A DNA stretch of 64,000 bases from Endomicrobium sp. (GTDB lineage Bacteria; Elusimicrobiota; Endomicrobiia; Endomicrobiales; Endomicrobiaceae), in contig JAISEM010000024.1 of NCBI GenBank assembly GCA_031264105.1, positions 1-64,000 on the forward strand, read 5' to 3'. The position numbers and the translations under genes are program-made. Positions 1,597 to 53,006 of the stretch are shown piece by piece. Each line of letters opens with the position of its first letter. Within the stretch, counting starts at the first letter, position 1. A model generated the notes under the pieces. It worked only from the letters and a program-made list of their open reading frames with translations. It ran no database searches and was not told where the DNA came from.

Positions 1597-1851
1597 TCAG
1601 TCGTATTTTATTTTCAAAATAATTTGAGCACTAGAAACTATAAGCATGACACTATTTGTAATGTATATAGGTGCTTTCTGAACTATTAAGCCATATATAG
1701 TCCAAAGGACTAATCCTAATGAAAAAATAATGAAAGTTTGTATTGATATACCTTTCGCTGATTTTAATTTATATGTTTTATAAACTTGAGGAATAAAAGC
1801 AATCATTGAACAAAAGCCTGCGGCAAACCCAAGATATTCTAAATAATCCAT
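1597..1851 (-). CDS. SemiSWEET-like PQ-loop transporter
   Basis: 84 aa, 3 TM, GFAAGFCSMIAFIPQVYKTYKLKSAKGIS PQ-loop motif. Confidence 0.85.
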   Translation of the reverse strand: MDYLEYLGFAAGFCSMIAFIPQVYKTYKLKSAKGISIQTFIIFSLGLVLWTIYGLIVQKAPIYITNSVMLIVSSAQIILKIKYD

Positions 1852-2005
1852 TTCTTTACCTCCTCAAGATATTCTAAATAACCCATTTCTTTACCTCCTC
1901 AAGATATTCTAAATAACCCATTTCTTTACCTCCCCAAGATATTCTAAATAATCCATTTCTTTACCTCCCCAAGATATTCTAAATAATCCATTTCTTTACC
2001 TCCTC
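1831..2005. repeat. Five tandem copies of a 35-bp unit (aagatattctaaataayccatttctttacctccyc)
   Basis: Copies start at 1831, 1866, 1901, 1936, 1971; differ at two positions only. Confidence 0.97.
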
Positions 2006-2773
2006 AATTGATAATGCCTTATATGTTTTGCGCAGTAAAAAGGATTTAATTGCGTGTTTTGGGCAATAAGAAATACATCTCATGCACAATTGGCAGTGCA
2101 TGCCATTAAAAATTGGGTAATTCCTTACATCATATTCAATATTTTCAACGGGACATATTTTAATGCAAAGCCCACATTTAACGCATTTATTTTTTTCTAA
2201 TCCAAACCTTACAATTTTTTGAAATACTTTTCCTCTCCATCTATTTGTTATAAAGTTGGTGATGGAAAAACAAACTTTAAAAAATATATTGGTTCTGTAA
2301 TGTTTTGCTGATCCATCAACCAATTGATTGGCAAAAAGTTCAATTTTTTTGTAGGCTTTTTCTCTTTTTAGAATATTTTTTTCTTCTTTTTGAACAGCTA
2401 TAAAGTTGTTTGGCATTAAAAACCCTTGAGCGCCAATAATGTCGTATCCTTTATTGTTAAGAACACAACTGAAATTTCCAGCCGTATTTAATGATGAATC
2501 CCCCATAGTTGTAAATACAAAAACTTCAGCGCCGTTACCGGTTGGCAAGTTATTTATAAAATCTTTGACGACAGGAAATGTGTTCCAACATGCAACTGTA
2601 AACCCGATACCTATAATATGCGACAAATTTATGTCTTTAGGATTTGCTTTTGCCAAATCATAGATGGATACTATGCAACCACTCTCTTCCATTGTTGCAG
2701 CAATTTTTTTTGCCGTAAGATAAGTATTGCCTGTGCCTGAAAAACAATAAATATCGATAGTTTTATTTTTCAA
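1979..2773 (-). CDS. EFR1-type protein: flavodoxin-like domain plus two 4Fe-4S clusters
   Basis: CFSGTGNTYLTAKKIA flavodoxin motif; CVKCGLCIKICP and CQLCMRCISYCP ferredoxin motifs. Confidence 0.85.
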   Translation of the reverse strand: MKNKTIDIYCFSGTGNTYLTAKKIAATMEESGCIVSIYDLAKANPKDINLSHIIGIGFTVACWNTFPVVKDFINNLPTGNGAEVFVFTTMGDSSLNTAGNFSCVLNNKGYDIIGAQGFLMPNNFIAVQKEEKNILKREKAYKKIELFANQLVDGSAKHYRTNIFFKVCFSITNFITNRWRGKVFQKIVRFGLEKNKCVKCGLCIKICPVENIEYDVRNYPIFNGMHCQLCMRCISYCPKHAIKSFLLRKTYKALSIEEVKKWII

Positions 2774-4551
2774 GTTTTTTTCTGCTTTCTTTCTTTTTTT
2801 TGTTTTTCAAGACATATTGTAAGTATTGCTATATCAGATGGCTTTATTGCATGGACTCTTGAAGCTTGTCCTATAGTTTGAGGACGAACTTCTTTTAATC
2901 TTTGTTTTGTTTCAGATGAAAAAGAATCAATTTTATCGTAATTAAAATCCTCAGGGATTTGACGATCTTCGTTCTTTTTCATTTTATTTGCCATTTTATC
3001 CTGGATTTCTATATATCCTTCATATTTTTTATGTATATAAACTTCTTCTTTTGCTTTTTCTAATGACCAAGGCGCTAAATCTTCGTCAGATGGAAGATTA
3101 TCTGTTATACCTTCATAAATATCTGACGCAGTTTGTCTATAAAGATCAAACTTTTTGTAAGCTTTGTCTGAAATCAGGCCTAAACAATGACCGATATCCA
3201 TAAGTCTTAAATCCGTGTTGTCGTTTCTTATAGAAAGTCTGTATTCGGCTCTTGATGTAAACATTCTATAAGGTTCATCCATTCCTCTAGTTGTTATATC
3301 GTCTATAAGTATACCGATATAAGATTCATTTCTCTTAAGTATAATAGGATCTCTTCCCAGAACTTTCAAGACTGCGTTTATACCAGCCACAAAACCTTGA
3401 GATGCTGCTTCTTCATAGCCTGTAGTACCGTTTATCTGTCCGCCTAAGAAAAGATTTTCAACTGTTTTAGCTTCTAAAGTTTTCTTTATCTGAAGAGGGT
3501 TTGAATAATCGTATTCAATAGCATATCCATATCTTATAACCTTTGCATTTTCAAGACCTGCAATTGAATTTATCATCTGTTGCTGTAAGTCAAAAGGTAA
3601 TCCCGTATAAAGGCCGTTTAGATAAACTTCATTAGTATTATATCCTTCAGGTTCTACAAATATATGATGGTTAGTTTTTTCTGGGTAACGCTCTATTTTC
3701 TCTTCTATTGCAGGGCAATATCTAGGACTTTTGCTGTTTACTTTACCAATAGGAATAGATGATAATTCAAGATTGTCGCCAACTATCTTGTGTGTTTTAG
3801 GGTTTGTGTAAGTCAACCAGCAAGAAAGCTGCTTTAGATCTTTCCTCCACTGTTCTACTTCAGTAAAATGTGAGAAAGGTCTTGGCTTTTCATCACCAGA
3901 TTGTTCAGTCATTTTAGAATAATCTATGGATAAAGAATTAATTCTTGGGGTTGTTGTTGTTTTAAATCTTCCAAGAACAAGTCCACAGTCTTGAGTCAAA
4001 GATTTCGATAGATAAGACGCTGCCTTCTCATTGAATCTTCCGCCTTCAAAATACATCTTTCCAAGATGTATGGTTCCTTTTAAAAATGTTCCTGTAGTTA
4101 CTACTACAGCATCCGTATCAATAGTTTCGCCTGTTAGTATTTTAACCCCACAAACTTTTCCGTTTTTTACTATAAGAGAGGTAACTTCGGATTGTAATAT
4201 TTCAAGATTTGGTTGATTTTGCAGAGATTTTGACATCAATACTGAATAAAGTTCTTTATCGCATTGTGCTCTTGGAGACCATACTGCAGGGCCTCTTGAG
4301 CTGTTCAATACTTTAAATTGGAGTCCAGCACTGTCCGTTATCTGGCCCATTTCTCCACCCATTGCATCTATTTCTCTTACCATTTGGCCTTTTGCAATTC
4401 CGCCTATAGCAGGATTACAGGGCATTCTTGCTATTGAATCAACATTTAATGTAATTATTAGTGTTTTAATGCCCATTCTTGCACACGCCAGAGATGCTTC
4501 ACAGCCTGCATGCCCCGCTCCAATAACCACAACTTGATATTTTCTTTCCAT
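2770..4551 (-). CDS. mnmG: tRNA uridine-5-carboxymethylaminomethyl modification enzyme MnmG/GidA
   Basis: VVIGAGHAGCEASLACARMG FAD motif, PCNPAIGGIAKGQMVREIDAMGGEMG, SRAEYRLSIRNDNTDLRL. Confidence 0.95.
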   Translation of the reverse strand: MERKYQVVVIGAGHAGCEASLACARMGIKTLIITLNVDSIARMPCNPAIGGIAKGQMVREIDAMGGEMGQITDSAGLQFKVLNSSRGPAVWSPRAQCDKELYSVLMSKSLQNQPNLEILQSEVTSLIVKNGKVCGVKILTGETIDTDAVVVTTGTFLKGTIHLGKMYFEGGRFNEKAASYLSKSLTQDCGLVLGRFKTTTTPRINSLSIDYSKMTEQSGDEKPRPFSHFTEVEQWRKDLKQLSCWLTYTNPKTHKIVGDNLELSSIPIGKVNSKSPRYCPAIEEKIERYPEKTNHHIFVEPEGYNTNEVYLNGLYTGLPFDLQQQMINSIAGLENAKVIRYGYAIEYDYSNPLQIKKTLEAKTVENLFLGGQINGTTGYEEAASQGFVAGINAVLKVLGRDPIILKRNESYIGILIDDITTRGMDEPYRMFTSRAEYRLSIRNDNTDLRLMDIGHCLGLISDKAYKKFDLYRQTASDIYEGITDNLPSDEDLAPWSLEKAKEEVYIHKKYEGYIEIQDKMANKMKKNEDRQIPEDFNYDKIDSFSSETKQRLKEVRPQTIGQASRVHAIKPSDIAILTICLEKQKKERKQKKT

Positions 4552-22623: not shown

Positions 22624-23859
22624 GTGAAAGCGCTTACAATTCAAATAGGTATTTTTGGTAGAACGAATGTCGGTAAATCATCTTTGATGAATTTTATGAC
22701 AAATCAAAAAACTTCCATTGTTTCTGAAATTGCAGGCACAACAACTGATGTCGTCTGGAAACAAATGGAACTTAATCCGCTAGGCCCAATAACTCTTTTT
22801 GATACGGCAGGAATTGATGACATGTCTTTGCTTGGTTTAGAACGAATAGAAAAAACTAAAAGAGCTTTTGATTCTTCAGATATCGTTATTTTGATGTGTG
22901 AGTCTGAAAAATTTGGGGATTTCGAAAAAAATATAATAAAAGAATCGCAGAGCAGAAAAACGCCTTGCGTTATAGTAGTAAGTAAAATTGATTTAGAACC
23001 CCCTGATGAAAAGTTTCTTGAAGATTTAAAAAAATATACAAAACACATATTGTTGTTTTCAAGCGCTACGGGAAACCGCGACACTTTTCTCAATTCTTTA
23101 AAGAAAGTTTTTCTTGAAGTTTTATCTGAAAACTATATAGAAAGCTATTTGGCTTTAAGAAGTATAGTTAAGAAAGACGATACTGTAGTCCTTGTTATGC
23201 CAGTAGATTTAGGCGCTCCTAAAGGCAAAATAATAATGCCTCAAGTTCAGACGGTAAGACATTTGTTAGATTTACATGCGGCTTCTTATACTGTTCAAGA
23301 TACTGAATATGAAATAGCTTTAAAAAATTTGAAAGAACTTCCAGTGCTTGTAATAACGGACTCGCAGGCAATTAAACAGGTATCTGCAAAAACTCCAGAG
23401 AATATAAAGCTTACTACTTTTTCAATAATTTATGCTGCCGATAAGTCTGATATAGTAGAAATGGCTAGAGGTGCGGCAGCTTTGAATAACCTCAAAGACG
23501 GGGATAAAGTTTTGATTGCAGAAGGATGTACCCATCATGCCACCTCAGACGATATTGGAAGAGTAAAGCTTCCTAAATGGATAAGAGAATATTCAAAGAA
23601 AAATATAGATGTAAAATATGCCTCCGGACAAGATTATCCGAGCGATTTAAAAGATTATAAAGTTGTAATACATTGTGGCGGTTGTACATTAAATAGAAAA
23701 GGTATGCTTTCGCGTTTAAGCAAAGCTTTAGACGCAGGTGTTCCAATAACAAACTATGGTATTGCTATATCTGTGTTCAATGGAGTTATAGATAAGGTTC
23801 TAGAAGTTTTTCCAGAGGCTTTATCTTCTTATAAGTCTGCGTTGAAAAGCGCAGTCTAA
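22624..23859 (+). CDS. hydF: [FeFe]-hydrogenase maturation GTPase HydF
   Basis: GRTNVGKSSLMNFMTNQ P-loop, DTAGIDD, EGCTHHATSDDIGRVKLPKW and HCGGCTLNRKGM cluster-binding motifs; GTG start. Confidence 0.92.
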   Translation: MKALTIQIGIFGRTNVGKSSLMNFMTNQKTSIVSEIAGTTTDVVWKQMELNPLGPITLFDTAGIDDMSLLGLERIEKTKRAFDSSDIVILMCESEKFGDFEKNIIKESQSRKTPCVIVVSKIDLEPPDEKFLEDLKKYTKHILLFSSATGNRDTFLNSLKKVFLEVLSENYIESYLALRSIVKKDDTVVLVMPVDLGAPKGKIIMPQVQTVRHLLDLHAASYTVQDTEYEIALKNLKELPVLVITDSQAIKQVSAKTPENIKLTTFSIIYAADKSDIVEMARGAAALNNLKDGDKVLIAEGCTHHATSDDIGRVKLPKWIREYSKKNIDVKYASGQDYPSDLKDYKVVIHCGGCTLNRKGMLSRLSKALDAGVPITNYGIAISVFNGVIDKVLEVFPEALSSYKSALKSAV

Positions 23860-24084
23860 ATCTGTATAATTACGACATTAAATATAAAACATTTTAATGA
23901 AAAGGAGTTTTTGTATGAAAAAGCCGTTAATGGCAGGAAATTGGAAGATGAGCAAATTATAAGTCTGCGTTGAAAAGCGCAGTCTAAATCTGTATAATTA
24001 CGACATTAAATATAAAACATTTTAATGAAAAGGAGTTTTTGTATGAGAAAGCCGTTAATGGCAGGAAATTGGAAGATGAACAAA
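23829..24084. repeat. Exact head-to-tail 128-bp tandem duplication spanning hydF stop, tpiA leader, SD and first codons
   Basis: Copy 1 23829-23956, copy 2 23957-24084, nearly identical. Confidence 0.95.
23915..23962 (+). other. 15-codon mini-ORF MKKPLMAGNWKMSKL* derived from the duplicated tpiA start
   Basis: Same AAGGAG-N7-ATG context as tpiA; terminates at the duplication boundary. Confidence 0.8.
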
Positions 24085-33755: not shown

Positions 33756-34965
33756 ATGAATGATGTTGAGAAAAAGTATAATTATTGGCAAAATCGTATA
33801 TTATTAGGGACAATTGTTGGCTACGCCGTCTTTTATCTTGTACGAAAAAATTTAAATATGGCAATGCCGGGTCTGCAAGCAGATTTAGGTATCACAAAAG
33901 CTCAATTGGGAATTTTTTAACACTACACGGTATTATCTACGGAGTTTCAAAGTTTTTAAGCGGTTTTCCTGCTTTGGTTTTAGTTCGTCTCTAATGATTT
34001 TAGGTATTTTTTGGGTATTAAATGGCTTTTTTCAAGGATTTAGATTTCCTCCTATAGCACGATTACTCGCATACTGTATTCCTCCAAAACAATTAGCTAC
34101 TAAAATGTCCGTTTGGCAAACATCTCATTCTATTGGTGGAGCTTTAGCTGTTATTATTTGTGGTTATCTTGTTTCTTTTGGTTGGAGATGGTGTTTCTAT
34201 GTCCCTGCAGTTTTGGCATTGCTTGGCGTTGTTTGGATGTGGATTACTGTAAGAAATTCTCCAAAAGATGTAGGTCTTCCTGAAATAGACGAAATTGAGC
34301 ATAAAAATAATCATAAAGAAACTCAATCAAATGATGATGAATATAAACAACTTTTGATGAAAAAGATTTTTAAAAATAAGGTTATATGGATTTTGGCTAT
34401 AGCAAATCTTCCCGTATACGCTTTGCGTTTTGCCGTTCTTGATTGGGGTCCAACACTTTTAAAAGAATGGAAAGGTCTATCTCTTGCTCATGCAGGTTGG
34501 ATAGTAGCTGCTTTTGAAGTAGCGGGTATATTGGGTATGCTTACTGCAAGGTCCGCGCTACAGATAAGTTTTTTGATGGTAAAGCTCATAGAGTTTGCTT
34601 AATATGCATGGTATTAGCTTCAACATTTATGCTTTTGTTCTGGAAATTGACTAATGTTCCAGTATTTGTATATATAGTTTTCTTGATCCTATCAGGATTC
34701 TTTTTGTACGGAGCTCAGGCTCTTGGAACAATTGCGACATCTAAGACTGCTACGAGAAGAGTTGCGGCTACTGCTTGTGGATTCCATGGTATTTGGGGTT
34801 ATTTAAGTGTTCTCCTTACAGGTTGGGTGGGTGGGTGGTTTCCTTACTGATGCGCATGGATGGTCCTATTCGCTAGGTGCGCTTATATTTTTAGGATTTT
34901 CAGGGGTTATCTTATTTGCTTTGATATGGATGCAAAAGCAGATAGTTACGACGATATGTAAGTTG
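33756..34965 (+). pseudogene. UhpC/GlpT-type organophosphate/hexose-phosphate transporter with several frameshifts
   Basis: YWQNRILLGTIVGYAVFYLVRKNLNMAMPGLQADLGITKAQLGIF / LTLHGIIYGVSKFLSG / LMILGIFWVLNGFFQGFRFPPIARLL...MSVWQTSHSIGGAL / ATRRVAATACGFHGIWGYL / GGFLTDAHGWSYSL in successive frames. Confidence 0.9.
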
Positions 34966-47869: not shown

Positions 47870-49970
47870 TATGCTGCTTATGTAAAATCCGGTACAGCAA
47901 CAAGTAACTTTGCGGATATATATGGAAATATATATACTAGTAGCGCAGGTATTGCTTATTGTAGTATTTACTCTGTTCATCTTACATCTGGATTAGCTAC
48001 AAAAAACTCAGTGAAAAAGTTCATGAAGGTACTTACGTAGATGGAGATATTAAAGGTGTTTATATCACAACAGGAATATCAATAAATAATGAGGTTAATA
48101 TTTCAGGGCATTGTATTAGAAATGTTACTGGCTCTTCTGTTTATTATGGTACGTCATCACATAATATTTTGAATGTTTCAGGTTCTGCAGGCTCTGTATC
48201 TGGATCTGGTGTTACATTTGAAGTTTCTAAAAATGAGAGTATAAACATTTTTGGAGTAGTAAATAACGATGTATTTGGTTGTTACGATATTTTATCAGGT
48301 GTAGTTTCAGATAATGTTATTAATATATTTGGAAGAGTTGCAGGTAATATATATTGCGCTTTTTCTAATCCTAGTCCTGGTAGTAGTGCTATAAATAACA
48401 CCGTTATTATCTATGAAGGAGCTTCTCTATCAATAAATAGCGTTTTATTGGGAGGAAGAAAAGCTAATGATAAGGATGACGTTTTTAGTGGAAACGCTCT
48501 TGAGATATATGCAAAAAATATTCAAATTTATGGTATCAATAACTTTGAAATTTATAATTTTCATTTGCCAAGGAGTATAAAGAAGGATGATGCAATTATA
48601 GATGTGAAGGCTGGTACTGGATGTACTAAATTGGACCGTTCTCCAGAGACTGATGACCCAATTAATTTGAGTAGTACTACAGTGAAAGCACAATTTCAAA
48701 GTGAAGAGGATATTCCTATTTTAAATGTTGGCGACAAAATTTATTTAATAGTAAGTTCAGGTATAGGCGCTGGGATAAATAATGCTCCTGTCAACAGTAA
48801 TATAGATATGAATGGACTTTTTGGCGCAACTCTTCTTTACGATTATAGTTTTTTGATCAGCACTACAAACACATCTTTATATTTAGAAGTTAAAGATTCA
48901 AAATTTGATCTCAATCCTAAAGCCAATAACTGTTTAGAAGAAGGAACTGCTCAAATACTTTTTGTTAATAGATCTTTAGGTTTGCTTGCAGGTAAAGGAA
49001 TAAGAGAAGCAGTTGATAGTGTAAGTTCAAATAACGATGGAAGCTTGAATTCATATGGTAAAGCTGGTGCATTTGGCGTTGTGTCTGTGGGAAACTTAAA
49101 ATATGGCGGAAATACTTTAGAAATAAATGGTATTTCTTTTATAGCAGGTATAGCTAAAGAGTATATGCCTATTGTTGATAAAAAATTGGTTTTAGGTGCT
49201 TTTTTGGAACATGGCGAGGGAGAATATACAGTAAAAACCAGCTATGATCAAGATACAATTCTTGGCCATTTATCTGGGAAAACAGAAGCAAAAGGTAATC
49301 CTCAATATATGGGGTATAGGCATTTTGGGAAGATTTGGATTGTGGAATGTCAAAGATACTTTTGGAAAGATAATAGGTGAAGTATATTTAGACGGCTCTG
49401 CAAAAATTGGAAAAACTGACTCAAGCTATAAAAATAGAGATATGAAAGGAGCAGGAGAATTTAATACGGATGGAACATATTATGGCGGGCATCTGGGCTG
49501 CGGATATATAAAAGATTTAGGAATTTTAGACCTTGAAGGCTATTTAAATGGTTATATGTTCACGAAGAGCCTAAAAAAGCAAAACTTATTGCCGGAGATG
49601 CAATAAGTTTTGGGCAAATTAACTCTAGTAGATTAATAAGAAGCATTTTTAATTTAAGTCGGAGTATAACGCCATTTATAGGACTAGGAACTGGGTATGA
49701 AACACAAGGTAAAGTTGCGGCAAAAATTTTTATACTTGAACTAGAGCCTGAGAATTTATGCGGTTGGACCCAAAGCGGAGAGTTTGGAGTAAAAACTGAT
49801 ATTAGTAATTTTAGAACGGAATTGAGCGTAGAAGGATATTCAGGTAAAAAGAAAGGTTTAGTCGGGTTGATCAGGATTTCATATCTACTTAAAAAATTAA
49901 AGTATTTCTGTTACCCAAAATATTTAAATTCCAATTCATTTAACTCCATTTGTATATGTTCTTTTTCATA
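47870..49970 (+). pseudogene. Autotransporter-like outer-membrane protein, truncated N-terminus and at least two frameshifts
   Basis: Ser/Gly/Asn-rich INxxG passenger-like repeats and C-terminal barrel domain; frames 48169-49380, 49244-49606 and a third continuing EEPKKAKLIAGDAISFGQINSSRLIRSIFNLSRSITPFIGLGTGYETQGK. Confidence 0.8.
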
Positions 49971-50660: not shown

Positions 50661-50840
50661 TTATTTACAAGGACAATATATTTTACGTATTTTAAATTCT
50701 TCTTTCTTTCCTTCATTCCATAAAGAAACAGGCCTCAAATAACCTACAACTCTTGAGTAAACCTCGCATTTTGTTCCTTCAACGCTGTCTCTTTGTGCTT
50801 TTAATTCATTGATTTTTTCTTGAATTTCATTAACAGTCAT
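50661..50840 (-). CDS. Separate 59-aa glycyl-radical C-terminal segment of class III ribonucleotide reductase
   Basis: MTVNEIQEKINELKAQRDSVEGTKCEVYSRVVGYLRPVSLWNEGKKEEFKIRKIYCPCK*, SD GGAGA upstream; contains NrdD-like RVVGYLRPV glycyl-radical motif; below ORF-track size cutoff. Confidence 0.8.
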   Translation of the reverse strand: MTVNEIQEKINELKAQRDSVEGTKCEVYSRVVGYLRPVSLWNEGKKEEFKIRKIYCPCK

Positions 50841-50951
50841 TTTTGTTCTCCTTTATTAATTTGCGGTAACGCTTGCATTTAACGCTTTTTCAACAGTCAT
50901 TTTTATTCTCCTTTATTAATTTGCGGTAACGCTTGCATTTAACGCTTTTTC
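50832..50951. repeat. 60-bp tandem duplication at the nrdD junction
   Basis: aacagtcatttttRttctcctttattaatttgcggtaacgcttgcatttaacgctttttc twice, one difference. Confidence 0.96.
50856..50900 (-). other. 14-aa mini-ORF MTVEKALNASVTAN* created by the duplication
   Basis: Starts with the MTV of the small NrdD ORF and ends with the C-terminus of the large NrdD ORF. Confidence 0.8.
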
Positions 50952-53006
50952 AAGTGACTTTATGTGTCGATTTATCTCATCATATTTTTCGCTTCTACAT
51001 TTTGGACATTCTTGCTGTTCGCCTTCAAGGTATCCGCACTTTGGACAAACGCTAAACGTTGGTGTTATTGAAAAATAAGGTAACCTATAATTTTCACACA
51101 CAGTTTTTATAAAAACTTTTAGTGCCTGCATATCTTTAATTTTTTCACCCATAAATATATGCATAACTGTTCCTCCTGTGTATTTGGATTGCATACAATC
51201 TTGCAAAGTCAAATTTTCAAAAATATCGTCTGTATAATTTACTGGCAGTTGGCTTGAATTTGTGTAAAAAGGCGTGTCTGCTTTTTGGCTTGCAGAAATA
51301 ATATATGGATATTTTTTTGCGTCAATTTTTGCAAGCCTATATGAAGTCCCTTCTGCAGGCGTTGCTTCAAGATTGTAGTTGTTTCCGGTTTCTTGTTGAT
51401 ATCCAATTAGGGTTTCTCTCATAAAATCCAATACTTTTTCACCGAATGCTTTTCCTTTTTGGCTTCCTACCCCTTGGCCAAATAGATTCATGCATGCTTC
51501 ATTTAGTCCAACTATTCCTATTGTTGAGAAGTGATTTTTCCAATATTCGTTAAATCGTTCTTTTACGCTTCTTAGATAAAAACTCATATAAGGATACAAA
51601 TTACTTGAAGTTAATTTTTCCAAAACATTTCTCTTTATTTCTAAGCTTTGCTTTGCTATCTCCATTATATTTTTAAGTCTTTCCATAAAGTCTGCTTCAT
51701 TTGTAGATAAATATCCAAGTCTTGGCAAGTTTATAGTTACAACACCAATAGAGCCTGTTAGGGGAGCCGCTCCAAAAAGTCCTCCTCCTCTTTTTTGTAA
51801 TTCTCGGTTATCTATTCTAAGACGGCAACACATACTTCTTACATCCTCAGGGCTCATATCGGAATTTATAAAATTTGCAAAATAGGGAATACCATACTTG
51901 GCTGTAATGTCCCATAAAGCTTTTATATTAGGATTATGCCAATCAAAATCGCGAGTTATGTTATATGTAGGTATGGGGAACGTAAAAACTCTTCCTTTGG
52001 CATCGCCTTCAAGCATAAGTTCCAAGAAAGTCTGATTTAAAATATCCATTTCTTTTTGGAATTCCTCATATTTTTTGTCTTGACGTTGTCCTCCTATAAT
52101 AACAGGCTCGTACTTATAATGAGGCGCTACTGTTAAATCTAACGTTAAATTTGTAAAAGGCGTTTGAAACCCTACTCTTGTAGGCACATTTATGTTAAAA
52201 AGAAATTCTTGCAGAGCTTGTTTTACTTCTTTATATGTAAGCTTATCGTAATAAATAAAAGGCGCTAGGAGCGTGTCAAAGTTAGAGAATGCTTGAGCTC
52301 CTGCACTTTCTCCTTGTAGAGTATAAAAGAAGTTTACAATCTGTCCCAACGCTGTTCTAAAATGCTTCGCAGGTTTAGCTTCAGATTTCCCGCAAACCCC
52401 TTTAAAACCGCTTATTAAAAGATCTTGTAAATCCCAACCTACACAATACGCTCCTAAAAGCCCCAAATCATGTATATGTAGTTCGCCTTCACAGTGCGCC
52501 TTCCTTATATTTTCTGGGTATATTTTATTTAGCCAATATATTTTGCTTATTTCAGAAGAGATATAGTTGTTTAGTCCCTGTAATGAATAAGACATATTGC
52601 TGTTTTCATTTACCTGCCAGTCTAACTTTTTTAAATATTGATCAACCAAATCTACATTAAACAAAGAGCTTATTTCTCTAATTTTATTGTGTTGATCGCG
52701 GTATAGTATATAAGCTTTCGCTGTTTTTTTATACAAAGACGAAATTAAAACTTCTTCTACTACATCTTGGATTTCCTCTACTGAAGGCTTTCTTGCTTCT
52801 ATAGCGGTTTCAAGTACAGATAGCGCTTTTAGCGTAAGCTTTTGAGCAATATCTTGTTCAAATTCTCCTGTAGCTTTGCCAGCTTTTGCTATTGCCGCGC
52901 AAATCTTTTTAAGATTAAAGGGTTCTTTAGTTCCGTCTCTTTTTACAATTGTGCTAAAAATTTCTTCTTTTTTCATAAAATTTCCTCTTTGGCGATAAAA
53001 AACCAT
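50916..53006 (-). CDS. nrdD: Anaerobic (class III) ribonucleoside-triphosphate reductase, large part lacking the glycyl-radical tail
   Basis: ATP-cone (VKRDGTKEPFNLKKICAAIAKA), FPIPTYNITRDF, GSIGVVTINLPRLGY, CPKCGYLEGEQQECPKCRSEKYDEINRH Zn ribbon; probable start downstream at MKKEEIF. Confidence 0.93.
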   Translation of the reverse strand: MVFYRQRGNFMKKEEIFSTIVKRDGTKEPFNLKKICAAIAKAGKATGEFEQDIAQKLTLKALSVLETAIEARKPSVEEIQDVVEEVLISSLYKKTAKAYILYRDQHNKIREISSLFNVDLVDQYLKKLDWQVNENSNMSYSLQGLNNYISSEISKIYWLNKIYPENIRKAHCEGELHIHDLGLLGAYCVGWDLQDLLISGFKGVCGKSEAKPAKHFRTALGQIVNFFYTLQGESAGAQAFSNFDTLLAPFIYYDKLTYKEVKQALQEFLFNINVPTRVGFQTPFTNLTLDLTVAPHYKYEPVIIGGQRQDKKYEEFQKEMDILNQTFLELMLEGDAKGRVFTFPIPTYNITRDFDWHNPNIKALWDITAKYGIPYFANFINSDMSPEDVRSMCCRLRIDNRELQKRGGGLFGAAPLTGSIGVVTINLPRLGYLSTNEADFMERLKNIMEIAKQSLEIKRNVLEKLTSSNLYPYMSFYLRSVKERFNEYWKNHFSTIGIVGLNEACMNLFGQGVGSQKGKAFGEKVLDFMRETLIGYQQETGNNYNLEATPAEGTSYRLAKIDAKKYPYIISASQKADTPFYTNSSQLPVNYTDDIFENLTLQDCMQSKYTGGTVMHIFMGEKIKDMQALKVFIKTVCENYRLPYFSITPTFSVCPKCGYLEGEQQECPKCRSEKYDEINRHIKSLEKALNASVTAN

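Follow-up and report, generated by a model that had tools for sequence, protein, structure and literature searches.

Contingency loci are tandem repeats of phase-variable genes that switch reading frame or promoter spacing, and bicistronic-design leaders are short upstream ORFs that overlap a downstream start and deliver the ribosome to it. Overlapping gene pairs are translationally coupled by termination-reinitiation, mostly at single −4 or −1 nt junctions (PMC6728339, PMC10666635). Short overlaps are said to be required for this coupling (PMC10666635); its efficiency is best at −4 to +3 nt, lower with longer overlaps, and nil at −25 in one study (PMC12548453). The mycobacterial MIRUs are a dispersed family of small repeats, apparently mobile, whose insertions lie at start codons and overlap by 4 nt. 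Their ORF is coupled to the following gene by an overlap of stop and start (Supply et al. 1997, as cited in PMC12548453), and they are probably tolerated since coupling limits the damage. The senX3-regX3 MIRUs comprise three tandem 77-bp units in strain H37Rv, and two 77-bp units plus one of 53 bp in CDC1551 (PMC4213456). In our literature searches, MIRUs were the only repeated RBS/start arrays that we found described.

Here, we analyze a five-copy 35-bp array at the junction of an EFR1-family ferredoxin gene and a SemiSWEET transporter gene in an Endomicrobium genome from the termite-gut Endomicrobiellum group (G000; 987 kb in 54 contigs, 82% complete). It lies in a 64,000-nucleotide stretch of DNA, which we call the window. 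The closest known kind to this array is the tandem mycobacterial MIRU. In both, short units stand in tandem between two genes of an operon and contain a small ORF that overlaps the start of the next gene (in the array, four ORFs of 15 codons). MIRUs form a dispersed family at many loci, whereas the array unit occurs at one locus only. Nor is the unit a foreign insert absent from the ancestral junction: It copies the native junction and overlaps by 13 nt. The array works like a tandem MIRU, yet it is no member of that family. As in coupled overlapping pairs, each upstream stop overlaps a downstream start, so that a short ORF can hand the ribosome to the next start; those pairs have single junctions, whereas the array has five in series at −13 nt. 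The overlap of each mini-ORF stop with the next start also recalls a bicistronic-design leader. Like contingency loci, the array is a short tandem repeat, prone to slippage, close to where a surface or transport gene begins; unlike them, it leaves the gene whole whatever the copy number, each unit having its own start and stop.

Results

The array is not a chance pattern. TRF places it on the minus strand at 1830-2007, with a period of 35, 5.1 copies, a 97% match, zero indels, and a score of 328. Its five units of 35 bp (about 1832-2006; unit sequence TGRGGAGGTAAAGAAATGGRTTATTTAGAATATCT) all contain a strong SD, an ATG, and a TAG that closes the preceding frame. Unit 1 (1972-2006; TGAGGAGGTAAAGAAATGGATTATTTAGAATATCT) contains the EFR1 stop and an ATG at 1991. 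It is followed on the same strand by unit 2 (1937-1971; beginning TGGGGAGG, ATG at 1956), unit 3 (1902-1936; TGGGGAGG...ATGGG, ATG at 1921), unit 4 (1867-1901; TGAGGAGG...ATGGG, ATG at 1886), and unit 5 (1832-1866), which has the same sequence as unit 1 and whose ATG at 1851 opens SemiSWEET. Only two sites vary between units, each A/G. Read in order, the units are AA, GA, GG, AG, and AA; all four combinations are present, so the units have exchanged sequence to some extent or mutated recurrently.

The first four ATGs open minus-strand mini-ORFs of 15 codons each, every one overlapping the next ORF by 13 nt: MDYLEYLGEVKKWII (1944-1991), MDYLEYLGEVKKWVI (1909-1956), MGYLEYLEEVKKWVI (1874-1921), and MGYLEYLEEVKKWII (1839-1886), each followed by a stop. 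They join the SemiSWEET N-terminus (MDYLEYL) to the EFR1 C-terminus (EVKKWII and stop). Such chimeras arise by construction, because 35 is 2 modulo 3, which puts each mini-ORF back into the EFR1 frame. SD, ATG, and stop are preserved in each unit, and the SemiSWEET frame is by construction independent of copy number. The original prediction, made from the letters alone, had described a five-copy 35-bp array, in agreement with TRF; its starts and four 15-aa peptides were reproduced letter for letter, its stops 13 nt inside the next ORF were found at every step, and profile matches bore out the EFR1-type gene that it saw ending in the first unit and the transporter that it saw opened by the fifth ATG.

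The transporter gene (1597-1851, minus strand; 84 aa) matches the SemiSWEET profile NF037968 with 80.6 bits (cut-off, 80) and PF04193 with 53.8 bits, and its product fits the SemiSWEET class of single short PQ-loop domain proteins of about 85 to 100 aa. Upstream, the EFR1 gene (1979-2773, minus strand), which ends ...EEVKKWII and stop in unit 1, matches NF038196 with 154.5 bits (cut-off, 75). Farther upstream, in the same orientation, is an mnmG/gidA-like gene (2770-4551, minus strand), named by inspection of its translation. Its end overlaps the EFR1 start, a TTG codon, by 4 nt (2770-2773, minus strand), and the operon may therefore have two consecutive coupled junctions. A distant second SemiSWEET-like match (33% identity) is found elsewhere in the same genome (G000:C53:589-831). 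Two other regions of the window are likely pseudogenes: a fragmentary MFS transporter ORF (33994-34602, plus strand) and an autotransporter-like region in two frames (48169-49606, plus strand).

Among the genomes compared, the closest relative at the EFR1/SemiSWEET locus is Ca. Endomicrobiellum guadaloupense (G009, JAITJN010000058.1; 87% identity for SemiSWEET and 90% for EFR1); the remaining near matches are Endomicrobium/Endomicrobiellum assemblies. In all 11 congeners whose two genes are adjacent and readable, G009 included, there is one copy of the junction, with an overlap of exactly 13 nt; the overlap is 1 nt in G037, of the same order. No tandem repeat was found at this junction in the relatives compared. 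Aligned with G009, the window carries an extra 140 bp, or four units, at the junction, and the unit differs from the native single-copy G009 junction by one base. Because the junction is single-copy in relatives, this comparison shows the array to be a private tandem amplification of the ancestral overlapping EFR1/SemiSWEET junction.

In the 803 kb sampled of the 987-kb genome, no other array of at least three near-identical copies overlaps genes. The only other array of such copies there is noncoding, a 22-bp unit repeated 5.4 times with 100% identity (L175, 6038-6156; G000:C53), roughly 140 bp ahead of an ORF that resembles dnaA. We rejected a dispersed repeat family, as a genome search matched the 35-bp unit to a single locus. 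A double SD-ATG pattern, searched in 299 genomes of the phylum, had few matches in most genomes of the genus, near the reversed-pattern control, so the layout is not widespread in the genus; G000 itself has 7 matches on one strand versus 0 in the control, four of them expected from the array itself. A known RNA family or riboswitch was rejected too, an Rfam search of the 64-kb window having returned zero matches. The array RNA folds into an extended hairpin (z = −2.5); we did not take structure as its purpose, as such a hairpin is obtainable from tandem copies with partly complementary stretches.

SemiSWEET looks weakly constrained in these comparisons. Between the window and G009, dN/dS is 0.52 for SemiSWEET (on only 18 nucleotide differences) and 0.20 for EFR1. 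An AGA to TGA change (1597-1600, minus strand) has cut off the 13-residue C-terminal tail that the G009 orthologue has, a 14-bp tandem duplication breaks the frame in G028 (L037, G028:C11), and the gene behind EFR1 is eroded or absent in several congeners. Weak constraint on SemiSWEET would fit tolerance of the array.

Pairing with the anti-SD is strong in every unit (−13.5 kcal/mol in units 1, 4, and 5; −12.7 in units 2 and 3), and in the seven relatives measured it is no stronger than −9.3. These energies use the canonical anti-SD, because no 16S rRNA was found in the window's own 82%-complete assembly. In that genome, GGAGG precedes 29 of 552 long ORFs; at a control position, the count is 2. 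All five units share the A to G change that strengthens the SD; the change therefore predated the amplification or was spread by it, and selection for expression could also explain it. As in translationally coupled pairs, the upstream stop overlaps the downstream start, by 13 nt at each step here and in the 11 congeners; given this overlap, each relay step is probably inefficient. We infer that ribosomes would start SemiSWEET mostly by entering directly at unit 5. In a toy exclusion model, which has assumed rates and so bounds plausibility and proves nothing, going from one to five units with EFR1 silent changed SemiSWEET output from no gain up to about a 2.6-fold gain, and with EFR1 translated, from about a 1.6-fold loss up to a 1.2-fold gain. 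The effect saturates, with little change past two to three copies.

Two further near-perfect tandem duplications in the window cover gene junctions, and both are single-copy in G009. One (23829-24084, plus strand; 128 bp twice) copies the last part of a hydF-like GTPase gene together with the first part of tpiA, leaving a 15-codon truncated tpiA, the mini-ORF MKKPLMAGNWKMSKL and stop, ahead of the true tpiA. The other (50832-50953, minus strand; 60 bp twice) takes in the end of an anaerobic ribonucleotide reductase-like (nrdD-like) gene and the beginning of the small ORF that follows, leaving the mini-ORF MTVEKALNASVTAN and stop; the hydF-like, tpiA, and nrdD-like names were given by inspection. 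By approximate ORF-based gene calls, and with all three junction cases coming from one window, a randomly placed unit would span a co-directional stop and start at 0.7% of positions for 35 bp, 1.8% for 60 bp, and 5.9% for 128 bp. Near-perfect repeats inside genes have a period divisible by 3 in 9 of 10 cases (samples of G000, G009, and G014; zero repeats in the G028 sample). Junction duplications would survive selection because the upstream gene is whole in the first copy and the downstream gene in the last. Duplications that span junctions thus appear to be tolerated at any period, and those within genes appear to need multiples of 3. Duplication followed by purifying selection is the simplest common cause of the three cases in the window.

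Discussion

We consider the array to be a 35-bp minisatellite that arose by local tandem duplication of the ancestral junction, was re-expanded to five copies, and is near-neutral, a reading to which we assign a probability of about three in four. Replication slippage probably duplicated the ancestral EFR1/SemiSWEET junction with its 13-nt overlap, and re-expansion would then have brought the unit to five copies. With EFR1 kept whole by the first copy and SemiSWEET by the last, the duplication would pass selection. SemiSWEET would now be initiated mostly directly, at the strong SD of unit 5, with reinitiation after mini-ORF 4 adding some starts, and it would for the most part no longer depend on EFR1 translation. 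Overall, the effect is probably small and close to neutral. What counts against near-neutrality is that SD, ATG, and stop have been kept in all five units, which vary at only two sites and share the strengthened SD.

The same conservation is what one would expect if the array were an evolved translational tuner, similar to a contingency locus, in which slippage varies the copy number and a termination-reinitiation relay turns that number into SemiSWEET output. The anatomy is perfect, short tandem repeats are prone to slippage, and the strengthened SD is common to all units. Yet the junction is single-copy in 11 of 11 congeners, its 13-nt overlap lies in the range where coupling efficiency falls (PMC12548453), the toy model saturates at two to three copies, like duplications occur at two other junctions of unrelated genes in the same window, and SemiSWEET is weakly constrained or lost within the genus. 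Such a tuner is therefore improbable. The original prediction had read the locus as a relay and suggested that its copy number tunes transporter output: The relay of overlapping ORFs into SemiSWEET is correct, whereas these same observations leave the tuning unsupported. Its statement that ribosomes must stop and restart at each unit was also too strong, for the fifth SD and ATG are open to direct entry. We regard as unlikely, too, the wider proposal that the array is a relay of five termination-reinitiation stages, variable in nature, in which the number of units sets the output of this sugar transporter, or uncouples it, in a symbiont associated with protists.

A gain from uncoupling could instead have favored or kept the amplification, with several independently loaded strong starts replacing one coupled start and freeing SemiSWEET from EFR1 translation. 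Where there was a 13-nt overlap, the SemiSWEET start now lies 127 nt beyond the EFR1 stop, the array SD is stronger than that of relatives, and the share of output owed to EFR1 in the toy model shrinks with copy number under weak or moderate reinitiation. We doubt this explanation, since a single duplication would already achieve most of the effect and we see no sign that decoupling brings a benefit. Last, the array could be shorter or single-copy in the organism itself, as a fragmented, metagenome-type assembly with three tandem duplications on one contig might suggest. Such an artefact is very improbable: The units include distinct variants, collapse would lower rather than raise the copy number, and placement at gene junctions is not expected of artefacts. 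Moreover, exact repeats in the array reach 51 bp at most, and the record of the closest relative (not of the window) has k119 in its contig name; an assembly graph with a k larger than that repeat resolves the array.

The array is a real and tidy variant, most likely near-neutral, and most likely a harmless, frame-safe product of slippage rather than an evolved dial. Such arrays offer simple natural material in which to measure serial termination-reinitiation. Junction duplications generate short chimeric or truncated reading frames ahead of the real start, and annotators should not call these mini-ORFs genes. With three cases within 64 kb, junction-spanning duplications can persist in a small symbiont genome, both genes being kept whole.
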